A stretch of DNA of 64,000 nucleotides, taken from positions 35,143,780 to 35,207,779 of the forward strand of contig NC_080041.1 in NCBI RefSeq assembly GCF_012489685.1. The letters run 5' to 3'. The notes beneath the pieces are model-generated. The model had not been told where the DNA came from and ran no database searches. It saw only the letters and a program-made list of their open reading frames with translations. Below, one piece after another: positions 2,143 to 30,636 of this stretch. How positions within the stretch are numbered: the stretch's first letter is position 1; each line of letters starts with the position of its first letter. A program made the translations under genes and the position numbers. Origin of the DNA: Lotus japonicus (Eukaryota > Streptophyta > Magnoliopsida > Fabales > Fabaceae).

Positions 2143-3371
2143 TGAAGGTATGAAAAACGGTAGAAAGGGGGGTTTGAATAACGTTTTCAGTACAAAACTA
2201 CCACCTTAAAGATTTTAACAAATCTTTTCGAGAACTAAGTGCAAAAGATAGAGATAGAAAAGCACACAAGGATTTTATCCTGGTTCACTTGATAAATCAC
2301 TCAAGCTACTCCAGTCCACCCGTTAAGGTGATTTCTTCCTTCTTAGAATGAAGGCAATCCACTAATCAGGTAAGAGTTACAACTGCACTTGAAACCTACA
2401 AGTGACTAACAATTACACTGACTTAGCTCACACTAAGATTCACTCTCTTAGTCTTCTCTAGGATCCGATCAACCTTGATCTCCTAAAGGAAAAATCAAAC
2501 AACTGTTTGAGGTTGGTGTTTACAAGGGTTTGCTTCTGAATAAGCTGAGTGTAAACTAAAATAAATTACAAGATGAAAGAAAGCTTAGAATATTTTGAAT
2601 ATCTTGCGCGTGTGTTGCTTCTTCTATTCACTTCTCTTTTTCTATTCTCGCCGCTTCTTTCAATCTTCAGCCTCTATATATACTCCAAGGATTAGGGTTG
2701 AGCGTTGCATGGAAATGCTACCGTTGGAGGGCAGTTCTGGAAAATCCAGCTTCTGCTGTGGCTGAGAACGTTAGGTAGGTCGTCAGGAAGGTACACTTGC
2801 TTTTGTACTTGGATAGCGACTTGACCTTTTAACCTAGGAGACTTCTGATCAGAGGAATGCTTCGTATTGGAACTTGTGAAGCCGGTTGATCAGAGTCAGA
2901 GGGAAAGCGCAGATCCTCTGACCATTGTATCTTCTGATTCTGAACTCAGAGGGAAGAACATGGCCTTCAGAGTTTCTTGCTTCTGGACTTCAGAGTTTCC
3001 ACTATTCAGCTTCTGGATCTTCAGAGTCTTCTACACCATCGGAACATCTGAACCTTCAGTGTTTCTTGGTTGTCAGAGCTTCTGGATCTTCAGAGCTTCT
3101 AGCGACTGAGTCCTCATCAGAGTTTGTATAGCTTCAGATCTTCTGAAGCTTTTCCACTGTTCATACTGAACATGGTGAATGCGAAAGCGTTGCTTGGGTT
3201 ACCCTTTATACACAGTGCTTCTGATTTGTGTGAAATTGAGTCAGGGTCAGAGCCTGTAAATAGCACACTCAGAAAAAACACGTTAGAGTACCACAATTGT
3301 TCATATCAAAAGGTTAACTTGTAATCATCAAAACATAGAGTTGTACTACTAGATCAAAACTTGATCTTACA
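2143..3371 (-). repeat. 3' LTR of the copia element
   Basis: This 1229-bp LTR begins tgaaggtatg and ends cttaca on the + strand. It has the same length as 13048-14276 and no difference that I can see. In element sense a TATATATA promoter core lies at 2682-2675. The stretch 2830-3260 is packed with TCAGAG hexamers. Confidence 0.97.
2675..2682 (-). promoter_or_regulatory. TATA box in the copia 3' LTR
   Basis: TATATATA lies in the context ggagTATATATAgagg on the minus strand. The copy at 13580-13587 in the 5' LTR would drive the genomic RNA. The related LTR at 31914-33111 has TATAAATA at the matching place. Confidence 0.7.
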
Positions 3372-3930
3372 ATCTCCCCCTTTTTGATGATGACAAAACT
3401 AAGATTTTTGATGAACAATTCTTAAACATTAAACTGAATTCACTCAGAGTTTAGAGATATAGAATAAGACTTATCCTGATGTGAATAGTTTATCTTGCTC
3501 ATTCTGAATTCAAGTCACTGCTTGATTCTGAGCTTAGCTCCCCCTGAATCTAATACTTGATGAAAACGTTAGTAAAGTCTAGATTCTGAGCTAAATCATA
3601 TAAGAGTTCAGAGTGAAAAGCTTATGACATAGATGAAAAACGAATAATCAGAGCGCATAAGTGATCAGAGTCATGGACAAGGTATCAGAGTCTTGGGTAT
3701 CAGAGTCAACTTAGAAACACTTCAGAAGAAGTGAAATGTATTCCTTGTATTTGCCCAGTGACACATCTATGGTCATGAAGGTGGAACTCTTAAAATCTCC
3801 AAAAGAAAAATAAGTCACACTAACACATCTTACACATCAAAAACTGGGTTTACTCCCCCTTTTTGTCATAAGCAAAAAGCTCGGGGTGTGAAAAACTTAG
3901 CTTGAAGTACAAGGTACTCCCCCTTAGAGA
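3372..3930 (-). other. Polypurine tract and upstream purine-tract array of the copia element
   Basis: The tract next to the 3' LTR reads AAAAAGGGGGAGAT on the minus strand and is the likely plus-strand primer. Further GGGGGAG-type tracts lie near 3540, 3853 and 3919. Element 2 has the same four tracts in the same order (about 31383-31912). Multiple polypurine tracts are a known Sirevirus trait. Confidence 0.85.
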
Positions 3931-4113
3931 AGGTCTAAGTTGAAAGAAAATGAAGACGATGTAAGAATCAGAGTGAGGCGATAATAAATAGAAGAGTTAA
4001 TGCAAGGGATGAACGTTTACCACCGGTCAAGTGAGTAAATAGAAGGGTCAGTTACCAAGTACTTAACCTCGAGAAACTGTAAGAGCATTAACTTTCAGAG
4101 AGAAAGTGAAGCC

Positions 4114-4121
4114 TATATAAA
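4114..4121 (+). promoter_or_regulatory. TATA box of the antisense ORF
   Basis: TATATAAA lies 60 bp before the ATG at 4174, on the strand opposite the rest of the element. Element 2 has the same octamer about 50 bp before its homologous ORF (31193-31186). A start about 30 bp downstream would give a short leader. Confidence 0.7.
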
Positions 4122-4173
4122 GCGTTGGAGAGAAAGGTAAGCGTCACAGCTCGAATAATTTTCAGTAAGAAAA

Positions 4174-4566
4174 ATGGCATCATACAGAATGGCATTAGAA
4201 GAGCTCAGAAGGAAGGCGTTTGAGGAAGATATGTTCCTCAATATTAGGCATCCCGATGGTACAAAGACCATACAAGAGCTGACGAAGACACTGCTGGAAG
4301 AAGATCTTGGTCCAGAGATGGAGAAAGATCTGAAGGAGTTCCTCTGCTTCGTGGAAGAGATTCAGGAGCTTTGCCAGCGGGAGCTGAATCTGCTGGAAGA
4401 GAAGGAGACTGTGGAAAAGAGACTCAAGACGACAGAAGATAGTCTAGAAAAAGATGATCTGAGCATCAAACTTGGCAACATAGAGTATGCATTGGATCGT
4501 CTGGAGAAGGAAAGAGTGGAGCAGCGCCAAGAATGCAGAAGAATGAGGAAGGATCCTCCATTCTAG
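4174..4566 (+). CDS. Antisense ORF of the Sirevirus-type element (130 aa, unknown function)
   Basis: I do not recognise this protein. It is 130 residues, highly charged and almost certainly mostly helical: an N-terminal LEELRRKAFEED-type segment, a central run rich in Glu, Leu and Lys, and a basic tail ending RRMRKDPPF. Heptad-like spacing suggests a coiled coil. It lies between the envelope-like ORF and the 3' LTR, tail-to-tail with the former (213 bp apart). A homologue at 31136-30744 in element 2 has the same length, aligns without gaps and differs at about 31 of 130 positions, many conservatively. Both copies have a TATA box upstream and an AATAAA signal downstream. That pattern suggests a selected gene with its own promoter. 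Its role in the element is unknown. Confidence 0.78.
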   Translation: MASYRMALEELRRKAFEEDMFLNIRHPDGTKTIQELTKTLLEEDLGPEMEKDLKEFLCFVEEIQELCQRELNLLEEKETVEKRLKTTEDSLEKDDLSIKLGNIEYALDRLEKERVEQRQECRRMRKDPPF

Positions 4567-4622
4567 ATATAGGGAATAATGTATGATGGAAAAAATTATG
4601 ATGTAAACATAGAACAATTATG

Positions 4623-4628
4623 AATAAA
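4623..4628 (+). terminator. Candidate poly(A) signal of the antisense ORF
   Basis: AATAAA lies 57 bp after the stop of the ORF at 4174-4566. Element 2 has AATAAA 45 bp after the matching stop (30699-30694, minus strand). Confidence 0.55.
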
Positions 4629-4779
4629 ACAGGTTTTGCAAACATATGTGACACAAATATATATAGATATATGCATATAGAATCACAAATGAACAAATTA
4701 AAGTAAGTAAATAAGCAGAGTTTAAATAAAGCAACGTTAAATAAAAAGAAAAAGGAAGAAAAAGAAGAGATCCTAAAAA

Positions 4780-7629
4780 CTAAGATTTGTCAGTACGGCG
4801 CAGAAGTTCCATCATCATGTGCTTCATCTCAATCAGCATGGATTCATGAGTGTCAAGACGTTGTTCCATGATGTCGAGTCTGGATGAGCTTGTCGGAGTA
4901 GAGCTGGAAGGAACGTTCTGAGCAGCTTGAGGTTCTGGAATGGAAGCAGAAGCAGCAGGAGTAAACAGAACTGGTGCAAGTCGCTCTGCCTCAGCTTCAG
5001 CTTCAAGACGTTCTGCCTCAAGTCTGGCTTGTTCAGCCTGAGCTGCTGCTTGACGGGCAGCTTCTTCTTCTTGTTCTTTCTGTCTCTTGGCTTCTTCAAT
5101 GGCTTCAAGAAGCTTGGTTCTCTGTTCGAGTTCATGAAGAGCCACCCTCCTAGCAAACCTTTGCTTTGCAGCCTCAATGCTCTGACTTCCCTCTGCATGC
5201 AGGAGCTGCAGCATAACGGGAAACTGAGCCACCAGCCAAGTGCTCAAATTGTTCCACTCATCAGCCACATTTTCAGCATTCTCACTGAGGTCAGTCTGAC
5301 CGTGCACATTGCGGAGCCTCAAGGAGGCTTCATGATTGAAAATATTGATGCACTCAGAGAGAGATGTGGGTTGAAGGTGAGTATAGGGAATGATGGAGAG
5401 GTTGGGTGCAGGAGAGGCTGGGTGATTGCTGCTATGAGCTTCAGAGGCACCTTGTGGAGAACCAATGTTAATTATGAGAGCATTGGGTTCAGAGGTTCCA
5501 CGGTGAGGGTCTGAAGTTTCAACCAGAGGGTGAGGTGATCTAACCGAGGATTGGTTAGATACTGATTGTTCAGGTTCAGGGTCTGGTTGAATTGGCTCTT
5601 GTTGGTCAGGGACAGGGTGAGCCTGTTGGACTAAGGGGTCTGCCTCTTGGATAGGATTGGCCAAGATAGGTTCATCTGGGTCAACTAGACGTTCAGGTCT
5701 AGGGCCAGGATATTGCCTAGGGCTTGGACAGGTAAGGTAATATTCTTCCAAGGCAGATACCTTCTCTTTCCTAACCTCCATGAATTTTCTAAGTGATTCA
5801 GAGGTATTGGAGGGAGGAGAGTCAAAGACATTGATGGGGAAGGATACAGGTGTGAAGGCTGATGAAGAGTCTGTATCCGTGGTTCTGACAACAGGACGTG
5901 CTGATGCTCTGGGAGCAGAGTGATCAGACGTTCTGGGTTGTGGTTCTGTTGGTTTGGGTTCTGATTGGTTGGAGATGATGGGTTCAGAAGTTAATGGGTC
6001 GTATGGAATGGTAAGGAGAGAGGTTGGATCTTCTGACCTAGAGGGTTGGTTCTGAAGCAAATTCCAGAGTGGTGCTTCAGTAGGAGAAGGTTGAAAGAAT
6101 GAAGATCTTGGGGAATGTGGTGGAGAGGTGGTTTGTGCGGCTGGCTGGGATTCATGAATAGGAGTGAGGGGATTTGAAGAGTGTTGGAGTAAGGCAGAAA
6201 TTGGGAGTGCATCAAATAAATTCAAATCATCATCAGAGGTAAGTGCAGGCTTACTTGTATGTGCTGATGATCGAGTCACTCTGGCAGGAGGTTCAGTCCT
6301 TCTGACCTCTGCAGCAGCTGGTTCCACCCGAGTAGGCTTCACCACAATTCTGACTTTCTTCTGCTTCTTCTTTGGAGGACCATCCTCACTATCATCACCA
6401 TCATCATCATCAGGCTTGCTCTTCGCCTTCTTGACCAGAGGGACATCAGATTCCTCTGAGGATTCGTCCAGAACCATCTTCCTCTTGGTTTTCTTCTTGG
6501 GAGGAGAAGGAAACTCTGGAGCTGGTGGAAGTCTGCTGACGAAATCATCAAGGTCAATCTCGAATCCTTGAGCCCTGAGGTCTTCAACATAGCATCTGAT
6601 GGCTTCAGGATGGTCTGCTTGAGTCCACAGAGGGTAGTCATTCAGAGGCATTCTTCTTCCTCTGATCTCAGAAGATGTGTCCTCATGAGCAGGAGCAATC
6701 TTCTTCTGGACTAAGCCCATCTTCTTCAGAGAGTTGGCAGTGAAGACATCGCTGACGATTGTGCTCAGGTCCTCTGTGCAACCAGTCTCGATCAAATCTT
6801 GCACCAGGTTGCTTTCAATGAGAAAGTCTGAGAGCAGCCTCCCAAAAGGGATATATTTGATGGCTGACTTGATGGAGGAGGTGGTGCGAGACTTCCGGAT
6901 GCATTCCTTCAAATAGGAGAACAGGAAGTAGGGAAGGCAGATCTTCTCCTTGTCTTGAATGAAGAACAGCATCGCCTTCTGATTGAAGTTGATGTAGTCT
7001 GGAGAACTGCCCTTTGGTCGTTGATTGATGCAGTGGAGCAAGATCTTGTGCCAGATTCTCAGTTTGGGGTGAAGGTCCATCACTTTGTAGCTCGTCTTGC
7101 CCGGTTTGAAAGTGGTGTACAGGGCCTTGTTGACGATGTCCTTGGTTCTGGGTTTCAGCTTCGATTCCGTCAGTGAGAACCGATACCCATGAGCAGTTTC
7201 TGCACCTAGCAGATTCACGAATGACTTCTCCGTGATGATGATCTTCCTACCCAGTATGTAAGAGACCACCTGAGTGTCATCACAATCAGCGTGCTTCCAG
7301 AATTCCTTTACTAGCTTCTCATACACCGGTCCTCGAAGTCGATTGAAGTAGTTTCCCCAACCTTGAGCTTGGACTTCAGGACGGAGATCAAACCCATTTG
7401 CAGCCAAGTTGTCGAGGTTGAATCTCCATTCTGCAAGGACTTGGAGTTCCTCAGGAGGAAATACACAGTGAACGGCACAGCCCCGTTCTGCAATAGGAAC
7501 AATCTTCTCTTGAGCTTGAGCTTGTTCTTGTGCTGGGTTCTCAGAGCCCCGTTGACCCGTTGCCAACCCGACTACCATGTGAGGGAACTGAGGTGCATCT
7601 GCAGTAGATCTTCTGGTTTGTCTCACCAT
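4780..7629 (-). CDS. Sirevirus envelope-like ORF (949 aa, likely nuclear, coiled coil)
   Basis: This is the extra ORF downstream of pol that Sireviruses often carry and that is usually called envelope-like. I start it at the Met of MVRQTR, because the homologue at 27635 starts there, the A at -3 and G at +4 give good context, and the sequence upstream drifts like a leader. An earlier in-frame Met lies at 7785. Roughly residues 30-300 are a conserved globular region resembling what databases call putative plant transposon protein. Lysine-rich nuclear-localisation-like clusters (PPKKKTKRK, PPKKKQKK) follow, then a long Pro/Ser-rich stretch, an Ala/Glu/Gln coiled coil and a helical tail. I see no signal peptide or membrane segment, so an envelope role is doubtful. 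Confidence 0.85.
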   Translation of the reverse strand: MVRQTRRSTADAPQFPHMVVGLATGQRGSENPAQEQAQAQEKIVPIAERGCAVHCVFPPEELQVLAEWRFNLDNLAANGFDLRPEVQAQGWGNYFNRLRGPVYEKLVKEFWKHADCDDTQVVSYILGRKIIITEKSFVNLLGAETAHGYRFSLTESKLKPRTKDIVNKALYTTFKPGKTSYKVMDLHPKLRIWHKILLHCINQRPKGSSPDYINFNQKAMLFFIQDKEKICLPYFLFSYLKECIRKSRTTSSIKSAIKYIPFGRLLSDFLIESNLVQDLIETGCTEDLSTIVSDVFTANSLKKMGLVQKKIAPAHEDTSSEIRGRRMPLNDYPLWTQADHPEAIRCYVEDLRAQGFEIDLDDFVSRLPPAPEFPSPPKKKTKRKMVLDESSEESDVPLVKKAKSKPDDDDGDDSEDGPPKKKQKKVRIVVKPTRVEPAAAEVRRTEPPARVTRSSAHTSKPALTSDDDLNLFDALPISALLQHSSNPLTPIHESQPAAQTTSPPHSPRSSFFQPSPTEAPLWNLLQNQPSRSEDPTSLLTIPYDPLTSEPIISNQSEPKPTEPQPRTSDHSAPRASARPVVRTTDTDSSSAFTPVSFPINVFDSPPSNTSESLRKFMEVRKEKVSALEEYYLTCPSPRQYPGPRPERLVDPDEPILANPIQEADPLVQQAHPVPDQQEPIQPDPEPEQSVSNQSSVRSPHPLVETSDPHRGTSEPNALIINIGSPQGASEAHSSNHPASPAPNLSIIPYTHLQPTSLSECINIFNHEASLRLRNVHGQTDLSENAENVADEWNNLSTWLVAQFPVMLQLLHAEGSQSIEAAKQRFARRVALHELEQRTKLLEAIEEAKRQKEQEEEAARQAAAQAEQARLEAERLEAEAEAERLAPVLFTPAASASIPEPQAAQNVPSSSTPTSSSRLDIMEQRLDTHESMLIEMKHMMMELLRRTDKS

Positions 7630-8072
7630 TTTGAAGAGGTTGAAGGTTTGAGGTAGAAGATGAAGTTTGAAGGATGAAGAGAGATCGAGAGAGAAATCAC
7701 GAAGGAAGCGGTTTTGAAAAGCAGGGAGTGCGAGAGTGAAAACCGGAAGTGAGAGAGAACGTGTGTGTATAGTGGGTTTTATCAAATAACCGTTGTTGAT
7801 TCAAAAAGCACTTTAAGATCAACGGTTGAAAATTAAAGATAGACAGTAACAGTAAAATACACAATCACACACAGAAGATAAGCATATCTACACGCAATCA
7901 CTACAGACTGTCACACGGGCACAAGGAACTATGCATCAGAAATTCTGACGCACGTGTTGTTGTCTCAGCTTCAGAGTCAGTACCAGTGGGCACACACACT
8001 CTGATTGAGTTACCTTCTGGACTAGACATCTTCTGATCAAGAAGTATCATAGTCAGAGGTTCTGATCTATCT

Positions 8073-11000
8073 TCACTCTGGACAAAAGTCCATGTTTAGA
8101 TTTTTCAGGATAAAATTAAATCTATCTTCAGCTAAGGGCTTTGTAAAGATATCTGCCCATTGATGGTCAGTATCAACAAACTTCAGAAGAAGTACGCCCT
8201 TCTGCACATAATCTCTAATGAAGTGATACTTTACCTCAATGTGCTTTGCCCTTGAATGCAAGATAGGATTCTTGCTCAACGAAATTGCAGCAGTGTTATC
8301 ACAATAGATTGGGATATTGCTCTCAAGGATCTGATAATCCTCCAGCTGATGTTTCATCCAGAGCATCTGAGTGCTGCATATTGCTGCTGAGATATATTCT
8401 GCCTCTGCAGTTGATAGAGCAATGGTTGATTGCCTCTTGCTTGCCCATGAGACTAGATTGCTTCCCAGAAATTGACAATTTCCAGAAGTACTTTTTCTCT
8501 CTGTTCTATCTCCAGCATAATCAGCATCACAATAACCTGAAAGCTTATACTCTGATGTTTTCTTATACATCAAGCCAAGGTTAGTGGTGCCTTTCAGATA
8601 CCTTAGGATCCTCTTAACAGCAGTTAAGTGGGTTTCCCTTGGATCTGATTGGAAACGAGCACATAAATGAACACTAAATAATATGTCTGGCCTAGATGCA
8701 GTTAAGTATAGAAGTGAACCTATCATGCCACGATAGAGCTTCTGACATACTTTACCACTTATATCTTCTTTTTCCAGAATGCATGTTGGATGCATTGGAG
8801 TCTTGGCCACTGTAGATTCCAGCATATTGAACTTCTTCAGAAGTTCCTTAGTGTACTTGCTCTGATGGATATATGTTCCTTCTGGTGTTTGATCAACTTG
8901 TATTCCCAGAAAGTACTTTAATTCTCCCATCATACTCATCTCAAATTCAGCCTGCATCATCTCAGAAAATTCTTTGCATAGAGATTGATTAGCAGAACCA
9001 AATATAATATCATCAACATAAATTTGCACAATTAAGATATCATCTTTATAAGTCTTGCAAAAGAGAGTTGTATCTACTTTACCCCTTACAAACTCATTCT
9101 CCAGAAGGAATGAGCTAAGTCTCTCATACCATGCTCTGGGAGCTTGCTTCAGACCGTAGAGTGATTTCTTCAATTTGAACACATGGTCTGGTTTCTTTTC
9201 ATCTTCAAAACCTGGGGGTTGATGAACATAGACTTCCTCTGAGATATAACCATTTAGGAAGGCACTCTTTACGTCCATCTGATGTAGAACTATGTTGTGA
9301 TTTACTGAGAAAGAAATCAATAGTCTGATTGCTTCCAGTCTTGCTACTGGAGCAAATGTTTCAGTGTAGTCTATTCCTTCCTGCTGGCTGTAGCCTTGAG
9401 CAACTAGCCTTGCCTTGTTTCTGACTACATCTCCTTTCTCATTTAGCTTGTTTCTGAATACCCATTTTGTTCCAATAACATGGACATTCTCAGGCTTCTT
9501 CACTAAGCTCCAAACATCGTTCTTGGAGAATTGATTCAATTCTTCTTCCATGGCCAGAATCCAATCCTTGTCCTGAAGAGCTTCATCTATGGACTTGGGT
9601 TCAATTAAGGACACCAATCCTTTCAGACTCAGCAAGGTCTCTTCAGAGGGTCTGAAGGCAGATCTGGTTCTGACTGGTTCATCTTTGTTGCCCAGAATCA
9701 ATTCCTTAGGATGAGCTGCAGTGATTCTGCTCTTCTTCAGAGTTTGTGAGTTAGAGGGACCAGCTTCTTCCTCTGGTTCATCTTCCTCTGGCTCAACTTC
9801 CTCTGGAGCTTTGCCTTTGTCAGAAACATTAATGCTTAAATCTGCAAACTTTTCAACTAGCTTTGACTGGTCAGAGTCAAGCTTATCATCAAATCTAACA
9901 TGAATAGATTCTTCAATAGTCTTAGCATCAGTATTATAAAATCTAAAACCTTTAGATCTATCAGAATAACCAAGTAATAGACACTTAGAAGATTTAGCAT
10001 CAAATTTATGCAATCTATCCTTAGTATTGAGAACATAACAAACACAGCCAAAAGGATGAAAATAAGAAATGTTGGGTTTTATGTTCTTCCACAATTCATA
10101 AGGAGTCTTATTCAGAATTGGTCTCACAGAGATTCTGTTCTGAATGTAACATGCTGTATTTACTGCCTCTGCCCAAAAGTGCTTAGCCATGCCAGTTTCT
10201 TGGAGCATGGTTCTAGCCATCTCCTGAAGAGTTCTATTCTTCCTCTCAACAACACCATTTTGTTGAGGAGTTATGGGACAAGAGAAATCATGTGTAATTC
10301 CATAGGAATCAAACAGACTCTCAAACTTGTCATTCTCAAACTCTCCACCATGGTCACTTCTGACACGCACAATTCTACAAGCCTTCTCGTTTTGCACTTG
10401 AGCAATGAAGGTAGAGAACACAGCATGAGACTCATCCTTGCGGGTTAGAAACTTTACCCATGTCCAGCGGCTATAGTCATCAACGATAACCATCCCATAT
10501 CTCTTGCCACCTATAGACTCAGTTTTCACTGGTCCAAACAGGTCGATATGCAGAAGTTCTAACGGCCTTGAGGTTGAGACAACATTCTTTGCCTTGAAAG
10601 GGACTTTTGTGAATTTGCCTTTCTGACATGCTTCACAAAGAGCGTCTGAAGCGAACTTCAGATTGGGTAAGCCCCTGACAAGGTTTAGCTTGCTCAGCTG
10701 AGAAATCTTTCTCATACTGGCATGCCCTAACCGTCTATGCCATACCCACTGCTCTTCATTAACAGACAGAAGGCACTTCACATTCTGAGCCTCCAACTCA
10801 GATAATCTGATCTTATAAATGTTGTTCTTCCTCTTGCTGTTAAACAGAACAGAGCCATCGATCTGACTTACAGCCCGGCAGGACTTTTGATTGAATATAA
10901 CATCATAACCCTTGTCAGCTAATTGACTTATAGACAATAAGTTATGTGTTAAGCCGTCTACCAATAAAACATTATCAATGCATGGACTACTATCTACACA

Positions 11001-11177
11001 TATAGTACCAGTACCAATAATTTTACCCTTTTCATTTCCTCCAAAGCCAACTTCGCCTCCAGGCTTAAGTTTCAGCTCTCGGAACATACGCTTTTCTCCC
11101 GTCATGTGACGCGAGCATCCACTGTCCAGATACCATGATTGGTGTTTCAGTGGAGCTATCAAGGATATCTGCAACAT
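8073..11177 (-). CDS. Ty1/copia pol: protease, integrase, reverse transcriptase, RNase H
   Basis: This 1034-residue polyprotein has the copia order. Protease-type DSG is at residues 18-20 within [11 protein letters not shown]. Integrase zinc ligands are H147, H152, C181 and C184, and its catalytic residues appear to be D212, D275 and E311. The reverse transcriptase YVDD box is at 720-723. RNase H is C-terminal, with CDADYAGD and STAEAEYI. No stop or gap breaks it. It overlaps gag by 113 nt in the +1 frame relative to gag, so Gag-Pol needs either ribosomal frameshifting or an indel that separates once-joined frames. The Met at 11177 is only the first Met of the open frame and may not be used. 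Confidence 0.95.
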
Positions 11178-12975
11178 AGATAATCTTGTCCTTAGGTACC
11201 CACTTTCTGGGTCCTCTTTTGTTAGTTACCCCAAAGGTTCTGATCACCTTGGGTGTCTCAACATGATATTTTAAAGGAATATTTGCATGATATTTAGTCA
11301 TAGAGAAAGATCCCTTTTTAAGAGGGTTTTTAGCAACTTCAGCAGGTACAGGATCAGGCAATATGGTACCAGAGGGAACAAAGCATTCATACAAGGATTT
11401 AGCTTTAGACACAGAAGGCTCATTTCTAATTGGTTTAGAATAGCCAATGCCATGCATTCCATTTCTGCTTACACCATAGATCATTGAAGCCATTAAGCTT
11501 CTATCTACGCTTTTAGCCAGAAATCTTTGAAAAGATTTTTCATACTTAGATTCATGCTTACTATCAGAGGCATCGCAGGCAATAACTTCTTCTAACTTTG
11601 CAATTTGATTCTTAAGCACAGAGTTAGAATTAACTAAAGCATGGTTATCATTTTTCAAATCAGATATGATTTTCTCATGTTCAGAAGGAGTTTTAGAAAC
11701 AGCAGATAAGTTCTTTTTCAGCTTCTTATGCTTAGACAACAAGGAGTTATACTTATCCATGATATCAGACAAAGCATGTTTCAGTTCAGAGGTAGAGAAG
11801 GAAGCAAATACCTCATTTTCATCGTCAGAGTCTGGATCTCCTTCTGATTCTGAGTCAGAGTCAACAGCTTCCTTTGACTCTGTTCCTTTGTCTTTGACAA
11901 TAGCCATGAGTCCTTGGACTTCACCATCAGAGTCAACATCCTCTGACTCTGATTCATCGAATGTCACCATCAGACTCTTCTTGGTCTTGAAGTGCTTCTT
12001 TGGCTTCTTGTCCTTCTTCAATTTTGGACAGTCACTTTTGTAGTGCCCTGATTCTTTGCACTCAAAGCAAGTGACTTCCTTGATTGATGACTTCTTCTGA
12101 CCTGAGGATTCAGACTTTCCTCTTGCCTTTCCAGAGCCTTTGAACTTGCTCTGCCTGTGCTTCCAGATGCGGTTGAGTCTCTTGGAGATCAGAGTCAGCT
12201 CATCTTCATCAGAATCTTCTGATGCTTCTTCAGATTCTTCTTCTTCAGCTTGAAGAGCCTTTGACTTCTCAACCTTAGCCTTTTCAGATTTGGATTTCAA
12301 GGCTATGGACTTTTTCCTCAGATCTTGCATCTCTGAGCGCTTCAGCTCATGGCATTTCAAAATGCTGATGAGTTCTTCTAAACTCATATTCTCAACATCT
12401 CTCGTGAGCTCTATTGAAGTCACCAAAGGCATCCAACTTTCAGGAAGACACCTGATGACCCTTATGACGTGATCTTTTGTTGTGTAGCTCTTGTTGAGAG
12501 GACGTATGCCAGCTACAAGCAGTTGAAATCTGGAGAACATTTCTTCAATGGACTCATTTGGCTCCATGATGAAGGATTCATACTTTTGGATCAAAGACAA
12601 TGCCTTTGATTCTTTGACTTTCTTGTTTCCTTCATGAGACATCTTCAGAGAATCAAAAATGCCTTTAGCAAACTCACGATCTGTAATCTTCTGATACTCC
12701 TCATAGGAGATAGCACTTAGAAGAATTGCTCTTGCTTTATGATGTTGTGAGTACATCTTCTTTTGATCTGCAGACATCTCTGACCTTGGGATCTTTTTGC
12801 CATCTGCATCAACTGGACGCTCATAGCCATCCACAATAATATCCCAGAGATCTGCATCGAAACCCAGAAAGAAACTTTCCAGTCTATCTTTCCAATATTC
12901 GAACCTTTGACCGTCGAACATAGGAGGCTTTGCGTTGTAACCATCTCTTTGAGTTTCACTGGTGGTGGCAGCCAT
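11065..12975 (-). CDS. Ty1/copia Gag (636 aa ORF, one zinc knuckle)
   Basis: This is the capsid/nucleocapsid precursor of the copia element. The N-terminal half is the retrotransposon gag fold of the UBN2 type ([18 protein letters not shown], then [10 protein letters not shown]). A basic linker follows, then a CCHC zinc knuckle [14 protein letters not shown] near residue 305, acidic Ser/Asp/Glu repeats and a coiled coil. The start lies just inside the primer site and 5' LTR. The last 37 codons overlap pol in another frame. They sit where the DSG motif is encoded, so the tail is probably out-of-frame reading of pol. The true end of Gag is therefore uncertain. Confidence 0.92.
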
Positions 12976-13047: not shown

Positions 13048-14276
13048 TGAAGGTATGAAAAACGGTAGAAAGGGGGGTTTGAATAACGTTTTCAGTACAA
13101 AACTACCACCTTAAAGATTTTAACAAATCTTTTCGAGAACTAAGTGCAAAAGATAGAGATAGAAAAGCACACAAGGATTTTATCCTGGTTCACTTGATAA
13201 ATCACTCAAGCTACTCCAGTCCACCCGTTAAGGTGATTTCTTCCTTCTTAGAATGAAGGCAATCCACTAATCAGGTAAGAGTTACAACTGCACTTGAAAC
13301 CTACAAGTGACTAACAATTACACTGACTTAGCTCACACTAAGATTCACTCTCTTAGTCTTCTCTAGGATCCGATCAACCTTGATCTCCTAAAGGAAAAAT
13401 CAAACAACTGTTTGAGGTTGGTGTTTACAAGGGTTTGCTTCTGAATAAGCTGAGTGTAAACTAAAATAAATTACAAGATGAAAGAAAGCTTAGAATATTT
13501 TGAATATCTTGCGCGTGTGTTGCTTCTTCTATTCACTTCTCTTTTTCTATTCTCGCCGCTTCTTTCAATCTTCAGCCTCTATATATACTCCAAGGATTAG
13601 GGTTGAGCGTTGCATGGAAATGCTACCGTTGGAGGGCAGTTCTGGAAAATCCAGCTTCTGCTGTGGCTGAGAACGTTAGGTAGGTCGTCAGGAAGGTACA
13701 CTTGCTTTTGTACTTGGATAGCGACTTGACCTTTTAACCTAGGAGACTTCTGATCAGAGGAATGCTTCGTATTGGAACTTGTGAAGCCGGTTGATCAGAG
13801 TCAGAGGGAAAGCGCAGATCCTCTGACCATTGTATCTTCTGATTCTGAACTCAGAGGGAAGAACATGGCCTTCAGAGTTTCTTGCTTCTGGACTTCAGAG
13901 TTTCCACTATTCAGCTTCTGGATCTTCAGAGTCTTCTACACCATCGGAACATCTGAACCTTCAGTGTTTCTTGGTTGTCAGAGCTTCTGGATCTTCAGAG
14001 CTTCTAGCGACTGAGTCCTCATCAGAGTTTGTATAGCTTCAGATCTTCTGAAGCTTTTCCACTGTTCATACTGAACATGGTGAATGCGAAAGCGTTGCTT
14101 GGGTTACCCTTTATACACAGTGCTTCTGATTTGTGTGAAATTGAGTCAGGGTCAGAGCCTGTAAATAGCACACTCAGAAAAAACACGTTAGAGTACCACA
14201 ATTGTTCATATCAAAAGGTTAACTTGTAATCATCAAAACATAGAGTTGTACTACTAGATCAAAACTTGATCTTACA
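13048..14276 (-). repeat. 5' LTR of the copia element
   Basis: It is 1229 bp and, by eye, identical to 2143-3371, including all the short ORFs inside. The promoter for the genomic RNA (TATATATA) is at 13587-13580. It is followed by the GAAGT target duplication at 14277-14281. Confidence 0.97.
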
Positions 14277-15731
14277 GAAGTAATCTATACTCTAAGGTAC
14301 GATAATCTAGCGCGAAAGGACAAGTTTTCGGAAAAGGAAATTTTCCTCCTCCCCCCTATAGGGCTCGACCACTTTGGTTAATTGTGGGGTTCAATTTTTC
14401 TTCGATCAAACTTGGTTCCTATGCTTTCATAAGCCGTAACTAAGGGTATTCTGAACTCGGAAAAATTATCGGATCAAAAACTGTCGCAGGGGTATTTTGG
14501 TCATGATTTTTAACTTAGGATTTTCAAAACTGAAATCCCAAAAATAAAATTTTGCAGGGACGTCACCAACGACGTTTATGACAACTAATCCTACTAGCAC
14601 TAAGCTAAGGCGATAGTTTTCAGCCTAAAGGTTGAAGCTTTACACCAAAAACTCCAAAAATGGGTATTTTAGGCTCAAATTGATTCCGGCGGAATTCCGG
14701 CGACATAACGGAAAATCTAACCCGGCAGAAGTGATCTTGGGCACATATAGAAGAGGTTTAGAATCAGAAATGAAAGATTCATGATAGTTTTGCAAAAACC
14801 CATAAACTATCCGCTCAGAAAACTCTACAGAAAAGCTATGGAAAAAGCGATCGGAGGTAAGGATTAGCGACTATACCTCGAAGCCTTGAAGTAGCAACTG
14901 ATTGATCGACGATCAAGCAAGGATTGAACAAAATCTCTTCTCCTCCTCTCCTTAGCAAACTCGCGGCCTCCTTGGGAAGAAATGGGTAAGATATTTGTTT
15001 TTTCTCATTTTTTTGCTATATATAGAAGGTGGAAATTCGCGGGAAAATGAAAGTTTCGCGAATCTGATTTTTCCGGCGTCATTCTCCATGAATTCATAGA
15101 TATGTTTTGGCAAAAGAATTCCAAAACTATAAAGAGGTCTCTTTGTATTTTTGGCAACTAAAGCATAGTCGGTATAAAACTATTTTACCCGATAAGTTGC
15201 TTTTTGCATCGAATGTCAGAATGGAAAACTTCCTTCGGAAGAAAGATTGAAATCATCAAGAGAAATGGGTGTACGCGTGTAGAATATTCATTTGAAGCTC
15301 TGAATAGAAAAAGTCTTCATTGTCGAGAAATTCTAGGGTTTTGAAATACCAGGGATTCGGTTTCGGCAAACTTCCGATGATTGGAATCGGACGTTCGTAG
15401 ATCCTAGAGTTTCGCCTCGAAATGATGGTGATATATGGAAAAAGAGAAGTTCTAACATTTCTCTGAAGATTTTTGGAATTAACTGCCAGCGTGCCTAAAA
15501 GTGAAAATTAGCTATATACTAGGGTTTCTGACCTAGGTTTAAGCGTGTAACGATCGTGCTATAACTTTTATCGATCATAATGCAATCCTTGAACTTTTCC
15601 TGAACTTTCTCCTTCATAAATATATTTCATTTAATAAACTTTCGTTCAGGTTTCCCTTCACATTACATCAACCCTAATCGTGAATAAGAAGTTTATTCAC
15701 TTAGCATAAACTTAAAAACTCGGGCCTTACA
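14277..15731 (-). repeat. 3' LTR of the level-4 gypsy element, inner piece
   Basis: This resumes the LTR after the copia insertion. The first five bases are the duplicated GAAGT. It matches 23097-24551 with about six differences. A palindromic ctatatatag at 15016-15025 is the likely TATA region. The end cgggccttaca is followed by the element's polypurine side at 15732. Confidence 0.94.
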
Positions 15732-15769: not shown

Positions 15770-17632
15770 TTAAGGGTTAGTAAAAAGTTCTGGATACTGT
15801 TCTTGAATCTTCTCCTTCAGCTCCCATGTCGCATCACCAGTGTCTTTATTCCAAATGACCTTCACTAACTCGATCTCTTTCCCTCTCAACTGTTTTATCC
15901 TGGTGTCACCAATGCTAATTGGCGGTGTCTCGAAAGACAGATCATCCTTCAACTCAATATCATCCAGCTCGATAACATGTGTCGGATCCGCAATATATTT
16001 CCTCAGTTGTGACACGTGGAATACATCATGAATATTTGATAGAAATGGAGGTAGTGCAATCTGATATGCGACTGGTCCAATTCGACGAGTGATCTGATAC
16101 GGTCCAATGAACTTGGGCGTAAGCTTCTTTGACTTGATTGCTCGGCCAACACCCGTCGTCTGAGTAACTCTCAGAAATACATGATCTCCTTCTTCGAACT
16201 CCAGAGTTCTGCGCCTCTGATCTGCATAACTCTTCTGTCTACTCTGAGAAGTCCTCATCTTCTCTCTGATCTGCTTGATCTTCTCAGTGGTCTGTTGCAG
16301 AAGTTCCGGTCCTACCAACAGATTTTCTCCGTTTTGGTACCAACACAAAGGTGTTCTACACTTGCGGCCATACAAAGCCTCATACGGTGCCATACCAATG
16401 CTCGTATGAAAACTGTTGTTGTATGTGAACTCAATCAATGGCAATAAGGTATCCCAACTGCCCTTGTGGTCCAGAACGCAAGCGCGTAGCAAATCCTCCA
16501 ACGACTGAATAGTTCTCTCAGTCTGTCCATCAGTCTGCGGATGATAAGCAGAACTTAGTCTCAGCCTTGTTCCCAAAGCCTCTTGAAGAGCTTCCCAAAA
16601 ATGTGATGTAAACTTCGGGTCTCGATCGGATACAATACTTGTCGGTACTCCGTGAAGTCGTACAATCTCCGCTATATATATCTCTGATAGTTTCTCCACG
16701 TTGTACGTAGTCCTCACCGGTACGAAATGAGCCGACTTAGTCAGTCGATCCACGATTACCCAAATAGAATCGTATCCCTTCTGAGTTCTTGGCAAAGCCA
16801 CGACGAAATCCATCGATATGCTATCCCATTTCCATTCTGGCACATCCAAGCTTTGTAGCATACCTGAAGACTTCTGATGCTCCACCTTCGCCTTCTGACA
16901 TGTCAGACATGCAGCTACATACTCAGCCACTTGTCTTTTCATTCCTGGCCACCAAAAATTCACCTTCAAGTCCTGGTACATCTTCTTCATTCCAGGATGA
17001 ATGCTTAACTTGCTCTTGTGACCTTCATCCATAATCAATCTTCTCAAGTCAGGGTTGTTAGGCACACAAACCCTATCCTTGCACCGTAGGATATTGTCAC
17101 TTCCCACCTTGAATTCTGGGTCCTTACCTTGACTTACCAAATTTCTTTTCCCGAGCAGAAACTCATCTTGTAACTGTTGGTCTCGGATTTCTTCCATCAA
17201 CCCATTGGTAATTCTGATCATCCCGAACTTCAGTTCTCCCTCGGATAATTTCACATCCAAGCTCAAATCTCGAAATTGCTCTAACAGCTGCAGCTCCTTC
17301 ACCATCATCGACGAGATGTGCATCTTCCTGCTCAAGGCATCAACAACAACATTCGCCTTTCCAGGATGATATTGCAGAGTGAACTCGTAATCTTTGAGAA
17401 ATTCCATCCACCGGCGCTGCCTCATGTTCAGCTCCTTCTGCTCAAACAAGTACTTCAAGCTCTTATGATCACTGAATATGGTGAAATTGCGTCCATATAA
17501 GTGATGTCTCCAAATCTTCAGCGAAAATACGATTGCAGCTAGTTCCAGGTCATGAGTCGGATAATTCTTCTCATGCCCTTCAGTTGTCTTGAAGCATAAG
17601 CAACCACCTTCCGATGTTGCATCAGCACACAA
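15770..17632 (-). CDS. Ty3/gypsy pol, C-terminal part: RNase H end, integrase, chromodomain-like tail
   Basis: This is the downstream part of the gypsy polyprotein, 620 codons in its own frame. It carries the RNase H C-terminal half ([12 protein letters not shown], then DHKSLKYLF). Integrase zinc ligands are H205, H212, C242 and C245. The likely catalytic triad is D275, D336 and E372. The C-terminal segment from about residue 570 ([29 protein letters not shown]) resembles the chromodomain of Del/Tekay chromoviruses, which guides integration to chromatin. The first Met is not a real start: the ORF overlaps the upstream frame at 17539-17632 and the join is a frameshift near 17577. It could only be expressed as part of Gag-Pol. 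Confidence 0.92.
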
Positions 17633-20208
17633 CCCAAACCTTGATGCGAAGCATCACAGTATACCTCATAAGGTTCCTCCGGTTGCGGTAAGACGAGTAC
17701 AGGTGACGTCGTCAACCGTTCCTTCATCGTCTGAAAACTAGTTTCGCACGCTTCAGTCAATGCAAAAGGTTGGTCCTTCCTCGTCAGTTGAGTCAAAGGT
17801 CCAACTAGCTTCGCGAAGTTCTCGATGAAACGACGATAGTATCCCGCCAAACCGACAAAACTTCTGATCTCCGTCACTGTCTTCGGCCGTTCCCACGACA
17901 ATACGGTCTCTACCTTTGCTGGATCCACAGCTATCCCCTCCTTAGAGATCACATGGCCTAAGAATTTTACCTCTTTGAGCCAAAATTCGCACTTAGAAGG
18001 ATTGGCATACAACTCCTTCTCCCTCAGCACTTGTAAAACTTGTCGCAAGTGCTCCTCATGGTCTTCAGCATTCTTTGAATAGATCAGAATATCGTCAATA
18101 AACACCACGACGAATCGATCCAAAAATGTATGGAAGGTCATATTCATGTAAGCCATGAATATTGCTGGTGCATTTGTCACCCCAAATGGCATCACTAAGT
18201 ATTCGTAGTGTCCATAACGGGTTCTGAATGCCGTCTTCTGGATGTCCTCGGTCTTGACCCTGATTTGATGATAACCCGACTTCAGGTCGATCTTCGAGAA
18301 TATTGTAGCTCCTCGCAGTTGATCCATCAAATCATCAATCCTAGGTAACGGATACCTATTCTTGACGGTTACTTTGTTCAGTTGTCGGTAGTCGACACAT
18401 AATCTCGACTTCCCGTCCTTTTTCTTCACCAATAAGACTAGCGCTCCCCAAGGTGAAACGCTTGGTCGTATGAATCCCTTCGACAAAAGATCTTCGAGTT
18501 GGGACTTCAGTTCCACCAGCTCCGCAGGTGCCATACGATATGGTGCAATCGAAATCGGCCCTGTTCCCGGTACGATGTCTATAGCAAACTCAATGTCGCG
18601 TACAGGCGGCAATCCAGGTACATCGCCAGGAAAAACATCCGTGAATTCCTTCACCACTGGAATACTGCCAACTTCTGGGTTCCCTTTGCTCTCCAAGCTT
18701 AGCAAAACAGAATACTCCTGAGATCCCTCGTTCAAAGCGACGCTGATGTGATTGGCAGATAGATACTCGGAAAGATCCGAATCAGGAAGTACCACTCTCT
18801 TTCGGTTGCAGTCCAAAAGACAATGATAGCGGGACAACCAATCCATTCCTAGGATAACATCTAGGTTCTTAAGAGTTAGGCATACTAGGTTAGCATGGTA
18901 GATCCTATTGTTGTATGTTATCGGACAATACATGCATGCTGAATTAGCAAGTAGAGTCTTGGCAGGAGTAGCAACTATCAGATCGAAGCTCAAAGCAGTT
19001 ATAGGAAGTCTTAATCTGATCGCACACTCTCTAGAGATAAAAGAATGCGTTGCACCGGAATCAAAAAGTACGGATAGAAGATTACCGTCAATCCCGCAGT
19101 CGCCTCTAATCAGTCCATCGACTCCCTCAGCATCTTCACCATCCATGGTGTAAACTCTCGCTTTCGCAGCAGGACGCTGTCCTCTAGCAGTGTTGACGGT
19201 TGGTTCCGCCTTTGGTAGCCTGCACTGTGCAGCAGTATGCCCCGGTTTTTGACAATTGAAGCATTGGGGTCTCGTGTCGGGACAATCACGAGCATAGTGC
19301 CCCGGCCTCCCACACTTGTAGCAAGTCAGCTCCCTGTTCTGAGTCTGACCTCCAGAACCACCAGCAGCACCCATCATCGGCCTGTAAGATCCCGAGGCAA
19401 ACCCTCTACCAGCAGGACGCTGATACGGCCTCCTGTTCTGAAACCTTCCCCTGTTCTGATTATTCTGGGAGCCCGACCTCATCGGCCCTCCAGTTCCAGC
19501 CCGGTTCAACCTCCGGTTCTTCATCAGCTCCACTTCAGTGGCTTTCTCCACCAATGATTGGAATCGCATGATTCCCAGTGGCCTTACTGAGTCCTCAATA
19601 TCCGGCCTCAGTCCATTAACGAAACGCTTGCACATGTAGCGCTCGTTCACGTGGTCATGAAAGAATTGGAAATGCTTCGCCAAGGATTCCAGCTTCGAAG
19701 CAAATTCCGGTACAGACATACCTCCCTGACGGAGGGTCAGAAACTGTGACTCCCGCTCGTCCCGAGCACTTGTTGGAAAGTATTTCTCCAAGAAGGCGTC
19801 CCGGAAAGAGTTCCAGTTGATCTCTTCATGGTTAGCTTCCATGATCCCCCTGGTGCCCTTCCACCAGTATTCAGCATCTCCCAGCAGAAGATAAGTCGCC
19901 ATGCCCACCTTGGCACCCTCTACAGTCTGCAGAACGCCAAAAATCTTCTCGATTTCCTGGATCCAGAGATCCGCTGCGTCTGGATCAGTACCACCAGAGA
20001 ACTTTGGTGGGTTTTGCCTCCTGAAGTCATTGAGGCCTTTGTTCTGGTCCAGAGTGACTTCCCTCTGGCGCTGATGCTGTTCACGTGCTTCTTCAGTAGC
20101 ACGCCTCATGGCATTATCGTTTGCCTGTGCTGTTACCGCTTGGGCCTGCGCTGTTACCGCTTGGGCCATAGTGGCCATCATCTCCGCTAACTGATTAGTG
20201 TTCACCAT
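17539..20208 (-). CDS. Ty3/gypsy gag-pol, N-terminal part: Gag, protease, reverse transcriptase, start of RNase H
   Basis: This 889-codon ORF starts at [10 protein letters not shown], about 210 bp after the primer site. Residues 60-230 are the gypsy gag domain ([20 protein letters not shown]). Two CCHC zinc knuckles lie at about 296-309 and 316-329. The aspartic protease motif [10 protein letters not shown] is near 382-391. Reverse transcriptase runs from about 560, with FIDD at 703-706, and is followed by the start of RNase H ([13 protein letters not shown]). The frame breaks after ASRQLKG and ends 14 codons later at a chance stop. The missing continuation is intact in the next frame, so loss of one base near 17576-17578 is the simplest explanation. 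Confidence 0.93.
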
Positions 20209-20421: not shown

Positions 20422-23400
20422 TGTAACACCCCGATTTCGGTGGCGTCACTTTAGTAACCAAAATAAACTTAATGCGGAAAAACGTGAATATTTTTTTTTC
20501 GATAATAACTAAGACAAGACTGAATTAAATAAAACCCAAATGCTAAAAGGTAATAAAACTAATATACAATATATAAACAGCCCCCGCTGTAAGTAACAAC
20601 CTCGTCACGAGTAACCTCCAGTGACGGAAAGAAAAGTGCAACGCCCGTAGGCAATATATACAAACCAAATGAAAAGGGTGAAGTGCCCGCAACACCATCC
20701 CTCAAAACTGAGAATCAGCTGACCCAATGGCCTGAAAATAAGACCTCCTAAGTCCAACCAACTCTCTGTGATTCCCGTAAGGAAACCACACAAAAAGCTA
20801 TAGGCGGATCTACCCTGTCCCCTAAGTAACAAATGAAGCAAGACTGTCAGAGCTAAAACTCTACTCCTACACTAATCCTAACTCGAGGAGCTCATACCAA
20901 CACTCAAAACTATGTGCTAGCATGATCGTCGTCTGAATCAGAATCCAGAACGACCAAGTCTACCAACCCTATCCGTCCTCCCCTCGCAACCGCAGTACGC
21001 TCCGATGCTGGACTCACGGGCTTAGAGCCCGAACCCTGATCATCAATGATCGCAACAGAGGGTGCACTAGACCCTGCCGAAGGCACTCCCACTGGAATCT
21101 CCTCTGAGGGATCCTCCTCCTCTGAAGATGACGGTGGCGGCGGTGCTCCTCCGAATCCTGGTCCGCAGTGAACGCCCGGTGGCAAGTTGAGGCTGATAGA
21201 GCATCGCCTCAACACTCCTGACCTCAAGAGTCCTCCACTGTCCACGTGGTCTTCCATGATGCGCCCCGAATACGTCGCTCGATGGCTCGCGGGGTCAACC
21301 ACCCACGACCCGGGGTCGTCCTGATCGATCATCTCGTACCTAATCCCCCCCGAAGGGTGGACCATGGTGAACCAGTCCGCAATATTCATCTGACAAAAGG
21401 CGTTGTCCGCCAAAGCACACACAGAAGACGCGAGGGTCAACTCTAAAGAACTATGTAGATAATAAACCCAATAGGTACAAATAATAAATAGCCACTTAGG
21501 CTTATAACTAGAGATGTCATTCCTAGGGTTGCATGTTCCATATCGAACGTAAATGACAACAATAACAAATAGCATGTTCCAAATAGGATTGACAAATAAC
21601 AATCACACTCGACAACTAAATTAGTATGTATGTTGCATGATATGCAATGCAGGTTAACCCAGTCAACCAATATGCAATCTGGAACGGATGGACATCATCG
21701 GATCAGCCCTTCACCAGCCACGGTGGTGCCATTTCGGCCCGTGATGCCTCTTACTCCAACATCATCATGTAGCCAGATCAGCATAAAACCCGAAGACCTG
21801 CCATTTCGGTCTGCTACTAAGAGTCACCTAGCAGCGCTCTTACGCGGAAATCCTGGTCTTATAACCAATTTTGGAATCCGCCGTGGTCCGGTATCTCGCC
21901 GTGTTTAAACCACTTAATGAGTGCATGCAATGCAGTGATTAGCCAAACAACGTCTCCGACCTCACTCGACACGTCGCCACGTGTTCTAGCTAAATTAATG
22001 TCTCTAAAAGCTTACCCTAAGGTAAAGTCGATTCTGCGACAAAATACAATAATCATTAAACGAGTGCAACCACTCACGATGACTCTTCGGGTCATCAATA
22101 CTCTCACGAAGTCTCACGCTTCAGTGAAGTTTCATGCTCTCACAAGGTCTCACGCCTCAGTGGAGTTCCATGCTTTCCACAAGGTCTCACGCCTCAGTGG
22201 AGTATCACGCATTCACAAGGTCTCATGCCTCAGTGAAGCTTCTCGGCTCATCCCTTGGATGGCTAACAAACTGCTCAACGAGCGAAGGAGTACCAACATA
22301 CTCAGAACTTACCAAACTCCTCAACACTTGGATCCGACGACACTCCTCGTTTTCCCAAAACTATGATTTGACTTCCAATGCTTTCCTTCGAGGTTATTAT
22401 CATTACTTAAAGATTTTGAGGTTATTTAAGGTCTTATGAATTTTCTTTATAAAATAGATTCCATTTTGTCTTATCGCAAGTCTTATACATTTGCAGGATC
22501 TCCCAATCCCAAGTCGCTTCCAGAGGATGTCTCGATCCACTAAACAAAATTAAGGCCCGAACCTCGTTCGTCCTATCAAACTTTCTCAAAACTCTCAAAA
22601 TAAAATCGGCATGACCTGCCCGCTATTCTCACCATTCAGAATCTCAGATTCCAGTACAGAGCATATTTAAATCATCACAATCAACAACATGTCATATAAC
22701 AATAAATCGCATCATAAACACTTAGCACTTAGCATATAAAGCATGCACCACACATCCTAGATTACCCACATAGCACATAGCATGTAAGACAATCTCAAAA
22801 ACATTCAGTAGATGAATCATCTACATTGTCAGCCGAAGCCTCAGATAACATTTTCCAATCACACACAATTCCAGTGCATAAACAGTAAACAATGTCGAAA
22901 CATCGACCCTAAGCATTAACTAGAGATTCAGTGAGAAGCCCTCACCTGAAGGTTCTCCAGTATGATCGTCAAGCGCTTCCTCGCACTCAAAGTGTTGTTC
23001 CTCAGAGAAATCCTCAAAAGCACCTTTACAACAAAATCACATAATACTATAAGAATCTATCGAAAACTAAGCTATCGATACTTACTAAGGTTACTCGAAG
23101 TAATCTATACTCTAAGGTACGATAATCTAGCGCGAAAGGACAAGTTTTCGGAAAAGGAAATTTTCCTCCTCCCCCCTATAGGGCTCGGCCACTTTGGTTA
23201 ATTGTGGGGTTCGATTTTTCTTCGATCAAACTTGGTTCCTATGCTTTCATAAGCCGTAACTAAGGGTATTCTGAACTCGGAAAAATTATCGGATCAAAAA
23301 CTGTCGCAGGGGTATTTTGGTCATGATTTTTAACTTAGGATTTTCAAAACTGAAATCCCAAAAATAAAATTTTGCAGGGACGTCACCAACGACGTTTATG

Positions 23401-24551
23401 ACAACTAATCCTACTAGCACTAAGCTAAGGCGATAGTTTTCAGCCTAAAGGTTGAAGCTTTACACCAAAAACTCCAAAAATGGGTATTTTAGGCTCAAAT
23501 TGATTCCGGCGGAATTCCAGCGACATAACGGAAAATCTAACCCGGCAGAAGTGATCTTGGGCACATATAGAAGAGGTTTAGAATCAGAAATGAAAGATTC
23601 AGGATAGTTTTGCAAAAACCCATAAACTATCCGCTCAGAAAACTCTACAGAAAAGCTATGGAAAAAGCGATCGGAGGTAAGGATTAGCGACTATACCTCG
23701 AAGCCTTGAAGTAGCAACTGATTGATCGACGATCAAGCAAGGATTGAACAAAATCTCTTCTCCTCCTCTCCTTAGCAAACTCGCGGCCTCCTTGGGAAGA
23801 AATGGGTAAGATATTTGTTTTTTCTCATTTTTTTGCTATATATAGAAGGTGGAAATTCGCGGGAAAATGAAAGTTTCGCGAATCTGATTTTTCCGGCGTC
23901 ATTCTCCATGAATTCATAGATATGTTTTGGCAAAAGAATTCCAAAACTATAAAGAGGTCTCTTTGTATTTTTGGCAACTAAAGCATAGTCGGTATAAAAC
24001 TATTTTACCCGATAAGTTGCTTTTTGCATCGAATGTCAGAATGGAAAACTTCCTTCGGAAGAAAGATTGAAATCATCAAGAGAAATGGGTGTATGCGTGT
24101 AGAATATTCATTTGAAGCTCTGAATAGAAAAAGTCTTCATTGTCGAGAAATTCTAGGGTTTTGAAATACCAGGGATTCGGTTTCGGAAAACTTCCGATGA
24201 TTGGAATCGGACGTTCGTAGATCCTAGAGTTTCGCCTCGAAATGATGGTGATATATGGAAAAAGAGAAGTTCTAACATTTCTCTGAAGATTTTTGGAATT
24301 AACTGCCAGCGTGCCTAAAAGTGAAAATTAGCTATATACTAGGGTTTCTGACCTAGGTTTAAGCGTGTAACGATCGTGCTATAACTTTTATCGATCATAA
24401 TGCAATCCTTGAACTTTTCCTGAACTTTCTCCTTCATAAATATATTTCATTTAATAAACTTTCGTTCAGGTTTCCCTTCACATTACATCAACCCTAATCG
24501 TGAATAAGAAGTTTATTCACTTAGCATAAACTTAAAAACTCGGGCCTTACA
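20422..24551 (-). repeat. 5' LTR of the level-4 gypsy element
   Basis: This 4130-bp LTR begins tgtaacaccccg and ends cgggccttaca on the + strand. The tandem repeat is at about 22104-22250 and the probable TATA palindrome ctatatatag at 23836-23845. Several short ORFs here, including 230 codons at 20910-21602, also occur in the other LTR and look non-functional. The right flank aacaa is the expected target duplication, but the left flank is outside the window. Confidence 0.93.
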
Positions 24552-27201: not shown

Positions 27202-27634
27202 AGATGGATCAGAACCTCTAACTATGATGCTTCTTCATCAGAAGATGTCTAGTCCAGAAGGTAACTCTATCAGAGTTTATGTACCCATTGGTGCTGACTC
27301 TGAAGCTGAGACAGTAAACATGTGTCAGTCTCTATGACACATAGTTCCTTGTGCCCGTGCTGGCAGTCTGTTGTAATGAGTGTTGATGTGCTTCTCTCCT
27401 GTGTGTGATAGGTGTATTCACTGTTACTATCTATCTTTAATTTTCAACCGTTGATTTTAAGTTGCTTTTTGAATCAACAACGGTTATTTGTCAAAACCCA
27501 CTATACACACACGATCTCCTACACTTACGGTTTTACACTCTCTCTCTTCAGTTTTTCAAAACTTCTTACCCACGATCTCTCTCGCTCTCTATTCATCCTT
27601 CACCTTCAACCCAAAACCTTCAACCAACTCAAAA

Positions 27635-30623: not shown

Positions 30624-30636
<13 letters not shown>

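Follow-up and report, generated by a model that had tools for sequence, protein, structure and literature searches.

A short antisense gene under purifying selection in Sirevirus and Ty3/gypsy retrotransposons of Lotus japonicus that may move as a cassette with its promoter

The open reading frame at positions 4174-4566 of the analysed window (64,000 nt of Lotus japonicus DNA) is a protein gene under purifying selection, which occurs in LTR retrotransposons of both the Ty1/copia and the Ty3/gypsy superfamily. The overall best explanation, to which we assign a probability of roughly 60%, is that positions 4114-4628 represent an antisense unit of approximately 0.5 kb, consisting of TATA box, ORF and poly(A) signal, that moves as a cassette. 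Sirevirus lineages and Retand-like Ty3/gypsy elements would have passed promoter and ORF between them. The antisense accessory gene (aORF) is carried in the window by an element, E1, with the following features:

2143-3371, minus strand: 3' LTR, with the target-site duplication GAAGT at 2138-2142
3374-3385, minus strand: polypurine tract adjoining the 3' LTR (complement CTCCCCCTTTTT)
3853-3864, minus strand: a further polypurine tract with the same sequence, lying between aORF and LTR
4010-4173, plus strand: promoter block of the aORF (CACCGG, CTCGAGAAACTG, TATA, leader), conserved such that copia and gypsy copies can be aligned
4114-4121, plus strand: TATA box of the aORF, TATATAAA, at -60 from the ATG
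4174-4566, plus strand: aORF, 130 aa, acidic, predicted helical hairpin
4623-4628, plus strand: putative poly(A) signal AATAAA of the aORF, 57 bp beyond the stop
4780-7785, minus strand: envelope-like ORF, with a Transposase_32 match slightly below cut-off
8073-11177, minus strand: copia pol (integrase, RVT_2)
11065-12975, minus strand: copia gag (PF14223 family match)
13048-14276, minus strand: 5' LTR, with the target-site duplication GAAGT at 14277-14281

The aORF extends over 130 codons from the ATG at 4174 to a stop ending at 4566, antisense to E1, and is flanked by the envelope-like ORF on one side and the 3' LTR on the other. The preliminary description had placed it there, with a TATA box 60 bp upstream and AATAAA 57 bp downstream, and all of these coordinates proved exact. 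Judging from domain order, polypurine tracts and envelope-like ORF, E1 is classified as a Sirevirus (SIRE lineage, Ty1/copia): it has copia-type gag and pol with the integrase before RVT_2, several copies of one polypurine tract close to the 3' LTR, and an envelope-like ORF after pol, which is frequent but not universal in Sireviruses. With zero mismatches between its two LTRs it is a young one. Multiple polypurine tracts are described as a Sirevirus mark in the accessible part of PMC2829016. The complement CTCCCCCTTTTT is located at -800 and -321 from the aORF ATG in E1 and at -797 and -329 in the genomic locus L071, whereas upstream of the gene in 30 gypsy-type loci (L039-L068) the five-C form of the tract was found in 0/30 and a four-C form in 3/30.

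In E1, gag and pol overlap at 11065-11177 in different frames, an arrangement with shifted pol frame that is known for some Sireviruses (PMC2829016, in part). The element itself is nested in another one, a Ty3/gypsy element with pol at 15770-20208, and interrupts one of its LTRs. This LTR, approximately 3.4 kb or longer, is split into the parts 1-2142 and 14277-15527, sampled stretches of which match the other LTR of the outer element (20960-24347) at 99%.

A second element of the window, E2, spans 26373-33111 on the plus strand, is 5'-truncated and contains a homologous gene:

27488-30514, plus strand: envelope-like ORF, adjoining the side of the aORF that faces away from the 3' LTR
30694-30699, minus strand: AATAAA of the aORF, 45 bp beyond the stop
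30744-31136, minus strand: homologous aORF, same length as in E1
31186-31193, minus strand: TATA box of the aORF, TATATAAA, at -57 from the ATG
31904-33111, plus strand: 3' LTR

Alignment of both genes confirmed the claimed homologue at 31136-30744, equal in length and without any gap. The two are identical at 317/393 nt (81%) and in 100/131 codons including the stop (76%), so that the 76% identity reported earlier is correct for amino acids. Differences at codon positions 1, 2 and 3 amount to 17, 14 and 45. Both signals had been said to lie at nearly the same distances, which holds for the TATA box (-60 versus -57) and less so for AATAAA (57 versus 45 bp). No gap opening is present in the 393-bp ORF, compared to 20 in 703 aligned bp of flank; at the flank rate the ORF should have 11.2 (Poisson P = 1.4e-5). 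The remaining five frames contain two to eight stops each in both copies. The earlier argument that random antisense ORFs do not stay open and gapless at this divergence is thus borne out by the gaps, but a stop-free ORF by itself is weak evidence, since 9% of neutral simulations at the E1-E2 distance are left without a stop (P = 0.09).

Selection on the protein was assessed by the dN/dS comparison proposed in the preliminary description, here as GY94 likelihood fits for 21 chosen copy pairs (copia-copia, gypsy-gypsy and copia-gypsy). In 15 of the 21 pairs, among them pairs of all three kinds, w is far below 1 (0.09-0.33) and w = 1 is rejected (2dlnL 9.9-69.7), which speaks against neutrality. 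The other six pairs are closer copies for which w = 1 is not rejected, as expected from what follows insertion. Intact proteins, defined by an ATG and 125-150 aa, measure 129-130 aa in 31/31 SIRE-A and 129 aa in 16/16 SIRE-B-type sequences, SIRE-A and SIRE-B being two Sirevirus groups, and this length is constant down to approximately 40% identity to E1. Those of the gypsy copies (n = 22) are more variable (129, 130, 136, 137, 138 and 147 aa). At 34 positions the E1 residue is retained in at least 90% of each group of intact proteins (31, 22 and 16 sequences).

Searches of the 553.7-Mb assembly (65 contigs, six of them 68-137 Mb) returned 2972, 4393, 4340, 4194 and 4391 candidates, loose first-look numbers, of which the best 40, 150, 150, 150 and 150, respectively, were scored. 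Stop-free copies among the best 150 numbered 132 (of 4393), 104 (of 4340), 117 (of 4194) and 148 (of 4391), counted by hand in partly overlapping sets of best matches; these fractions are not unbiased rates, since best-match sampling favours intact copies. The genome contains at least hundreds of aORF copies. From the best matches, 89 loci were fetched and oriented on the gene, and except for a single unassigned locus all could be placed by their flanks (38 SIRE-A, 37 gypsy, 13 SIRE-B). The ORF is intact in 69/89 loci, again with a sampling in favour of intact copies. A TATAWA motif at -75 to -45 is present in 86/89 loci (SIRE-A 38/38, gypsy 35/37, SIRE-B 12/13, unassigned 1/1), compared to 2.6% of random windows, and AATAAA within 75 nt of the gene end in 82/89 (36/38, 33/37, 12/13 and 1/1, respectively), compared to 9.1%. 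As the loci are related copies, these counts indicate conservation and not independent events. Judging from this conservation, the aORF would be a Pol II transcript with a putative promoter of its own.

The same antisense gene, with a TATA box near -63, is situated in a gag-bearing Ty3/gypsy family. Its loci L039-L068 were found by a genome search with the homologue P0004 as query. Flanking DNA is common to all 30 of them, including L041, while DNA similarity to E1 is limited to the gene, except for a separate LTR-like stretch in L043. An E1-type LTR match was observed in only 2/30. L041, the only gypsy element read over its full length, piece by piece, has LTRs of approximately 320 bp, a 5-bp duplication (AGCAG) on both sides, a gypsy gag (PF03732) with the aORF antisense to it, and an antisense Transposase_28 (PF04195) ORF before the 3' LTR. 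Gag and Transposase_28 assign L041 to the Retand-like Ty3/gypsy elements, a label that is based on these two features. Together with L069 and L070, this makes an element of approximately 7.5 kb, in which gag is accompanied by two antisense genes. Homology searches of the three L041 pieces with the copia and gypsy pol of the window as queries gave no significant reverse transcriptase match, for which reason the element is apparently non-autonomous. The preliminary description had inferred that the ORF is a gene under selection in a copia lineage. Selection, conserved TATA and AATAAA signals and position were all recovered, but the gene is not private to copia elements.

To delimit the shared segment, six SIRE-A, six gypsy and seven SIRE-B representatives were compared, with random pairs at 0.51 (97.5% at 0.59). 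Mean Sirevirus-gypsy identity is 0.62-0.73 at -130 to -65, 0.56-0.64 at -65 to 0 and 0.66-0.73 in the ORF. Beyond these limits it is 0.49-0.53 at -400 to -130, 0.53-0.58 at +400 to +560 and 0.41-0.45 at +560 to +660. Identity is thus above random in promoter and ORF and at chance level beyond, so that the shared segment comprises these two parts but nothing outside them. For SIRE-A versus gypsy, the value of 0.56 at -65 to 0 falls within the random range, yet the TATA box is kept; motifs common to the copia and gypsy promoter blocks include CACCGG and CTCGAGAAACTG. No convincing terminal inverted repeats bounding the cassette were detected.

In the weakly resolved gene tree (68 proteins, 130 columns), the gypsy copies are situated between the two Sirevirus groups, in the order SIRE-A, gypsy, SIRE-B, with L081 and L083 within SIRE-B. 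The tree requires two changes of the Sirevirus/gypsy label without and three with these two loci. L081 and L083 carry a SIRE-B-type gene, but their downstream flank, cassette excluded, is closest to gypsy-type loci (80% over 806 columns and 83% over 351). The core gypsy genes alone may form one clade (p-AU 0.27), whereas a single clade including L081 and L083 is rejected (p-AU 1.2e-4). The combination of gypsy flank and SIRE-B-type gene and the rejection of one clade point to at least two copia-gypsy exchanges as needed.

A mosaic pattern is also seen between the Sireviruses. Identity of E1 and E2 is 0.95-0.97 in pol (8143-8892), 0.75-0.84 in the envelope-like ORF and aORF (3893-7892) and 0.87-0.96 in and beside the LTR (2143-3892). 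Third-position differences are 356/990 in the envelope-like ORF, 45/130 in the aORF and 27/249 in pol. L090 and L075, whose pol was paired with the aORF by strand and expected distance, have an aORF only 46% and 52% identical to that of E1, while their pol is 94% (668 codons) and 92% (280 codons) identical, respectively; third-position differences to E1 are 0.18 and 0.23 in pol and 0.60 and 0.54 in the aORF. Envelope-like ORF and aORF thus appear to have been swapped as a block, or pol was homogenised.

The protein (15.7 kDa, pI 4.8) contains 24 K+R and 34 D+E. AlphaFold2 with nine sequences gave a mean pLDDT of 74 and helices at 47-86 and 90-126, with the highest confidence at 71-110, and hence a predicted N-terminal helical part followed by a long antiparallel helical hairpin (47-126). 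Its earlier characterisation as charged and coiled coil agrees with these properties. Fold matches of the model are generic helical hairpins. No sequence match was obtained in NCBIfam or PDB, Pfam matches were below threshold only, and PF04195 was absent from both aORF proteins of the window at E 0.1.

From its own putative promoter, the product of the aORF could be made while the LTR promoter is off. An accessory unit in sense orientation would bring its poly(A) signal into the genomic RNA and cut it short, which may explain the antisense placement. It is tempting to speculate, although we do so tentatively, that the stand-alone unit of antisense promoter and gene circulates among unrelated LTR superfamilies as a shared helper, acts in trans against a host barrier such as silencing, and is kept by selection. 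Equally tentative is the suggestion that the protein has a target in trans, namely some host component that matters to both element types; the likeliest target would be a factor of the nucleus or of silencing, to which the hairpin would bind, and not the unrelated Gag or reverse transcriptase of the carriers. The preliminary description had considered action on Gag, on the host or as a regulator. Due to the presence of the gene in a Ty3/gypsy family, action on E1's own Gag has become less likely and the host is favoured.

Alternatively, the protein may serve its carrier in assembly with Gag or the envelope-like protein, in packaging or in nuclear import, and may later have been reused by a Sirevirus-dependent gypsy element. 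An envelope-like match is indeed located on the expected side in 37/38 SIRE-A and 12/13 SIRE-B loci, envelope-like ORF and aORF diverge together at third positions as given above, and L041, having gag but no detected reverse transcriptase, may depend on other elements. However, the Gags belong to different families (gypsy PF03732, copia PF14223), and the last 200 residues of the envelope-like protein gave 0/30 matches within 1.5 kb on each side of the gene in L039-L068. For these two reasons a host target is likelier than a carrier-specific one, and we consider service to the carrier rather unlikely. Independent capture of a host gene by both element types is less probable still. That the promoter region travels with the gene would suit a captured genomic gene, but the flanks place 88/89 of the best-match loci in an element type, and the branching order, with L081 and L083 inside SIRE-B, fits exchange between elements. 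It is very unlikely that the antisense RNA is the functional product, regulating the sense transcript or feeding small-RNA silencing, with the ORF being incidental. Antisense promoters and regulatory antisense RNAs do exist in LTR elements (PMC7264820, in the part available), but neither the third-position excess nor w far below 1 is predicted by an RNA role alone. A functionless chance ORF, common by descent, might be among the stop-free minority of neutral simulations, but it is already contradicted by w of about 0.2, by the lack of indels in the ORF and by conservation down to approximately 40% identity and across superfamilies.

The cassette reading can be compared to several known systems. 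Plant antisense aORFs have been described in Ty3/gypsy elements (PMC7264820, PMC4093653, PMC11963269, each in the sections available). The aORF-3R genes, i.e., maize Grande gene23 and those of rice RIRE2, Silene Retand and bean PvRetro13 (ORF2), are likewise antisense between pol and 3' LTR; they are kept in most copies, and a promoter of its own drives the transcription of gene23 (PMC7264820, PMC4093653). As in these genes, the E1 aORF lies antisense before the 3' LTR and exists in many copies with protein-level conservation. Known aORF-3R carriers in these sources are Ty3/gypsy elements, with bean ORF2s of 211-939 aa, whereas here a gene of 129-130 aa, without a Pfam match above cut-off, occurs in a Ty1/copia Sirevirus. 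Antisense promoters are also listed for AtRE1 and Mdoryco1-1 (PMC7264820). L041 shares an antisense Transposase_28 ORF with the TRP28 ORFs of Retand (PMC11963269, in part), and the aORF, without a Transposase_28 match in its protein, is a second, different antisense gene. The envelope-like ORF of Sireviruses (eORF-3'F; SIRE1, ToRTL1), present in E1 too, is also accessory and downstream of pol, but in sense orientation. In the accessible text of a 2019 survey, eORF-3'F is reported for SIRE, and 582 Ty1/copia elements have extra ORFs, with no separate figure for antisense ones; as ORFs were counted from 250 codons up, a 130-codon ORF was beyond its reach (PMC6317226). The ORF3 genes of bdelloid rotifers are accessory genes likewise exchanged between retroelement classes, but they are enzymatic, whereas here an antisense unit is shared together with its promoter (PMC5408684, in part). 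The anti-silencing proteins of VANDAL elements are a functional analogue only (PMC11728184, in part). An antisense accessory ORF in a Sirevirus, or one common to both superfamilies, was not found in limited searches of the open-access literature, and its novelty is meant in this sense rather than as proven.

Reports of antisense accessory genes in plant retrotransposons go back years, with no function known for them, and short ones would be missed by surveys starting at 250 codons. The present aORF is selected at the codon level, has a conserved promoter region, numbers at least hundreds of copies in a genetic model plant and shows natural copia-gypsy transfers. This suggests that genomic parasites pass a helper gene among themselves. 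Which need of both a Sirevirus and a Retand-like element is met by a 130-residue protein can therefore be tested in one species.

Short contigs in the assembly of Bradyrhizobium sp. TM233 also encode the aORF protein (P0002 and P0007). P0002 is up to 95% identical to Lotus japonicus genome copies, and these contigs are probably plant contamination. Two further repeats were observed in the window. At 38916-39160, a 74-nt unit occurs in four imperfect copies, with a spacing of 55-58 bp and CACGTGGGACAATCACCACCACA-like stretches. A diverged direct repeat (92-95%) at 60016-60344 and 61532-61880, approximately 1.5 kb apart, possibly represents the ends of a small LTR element.
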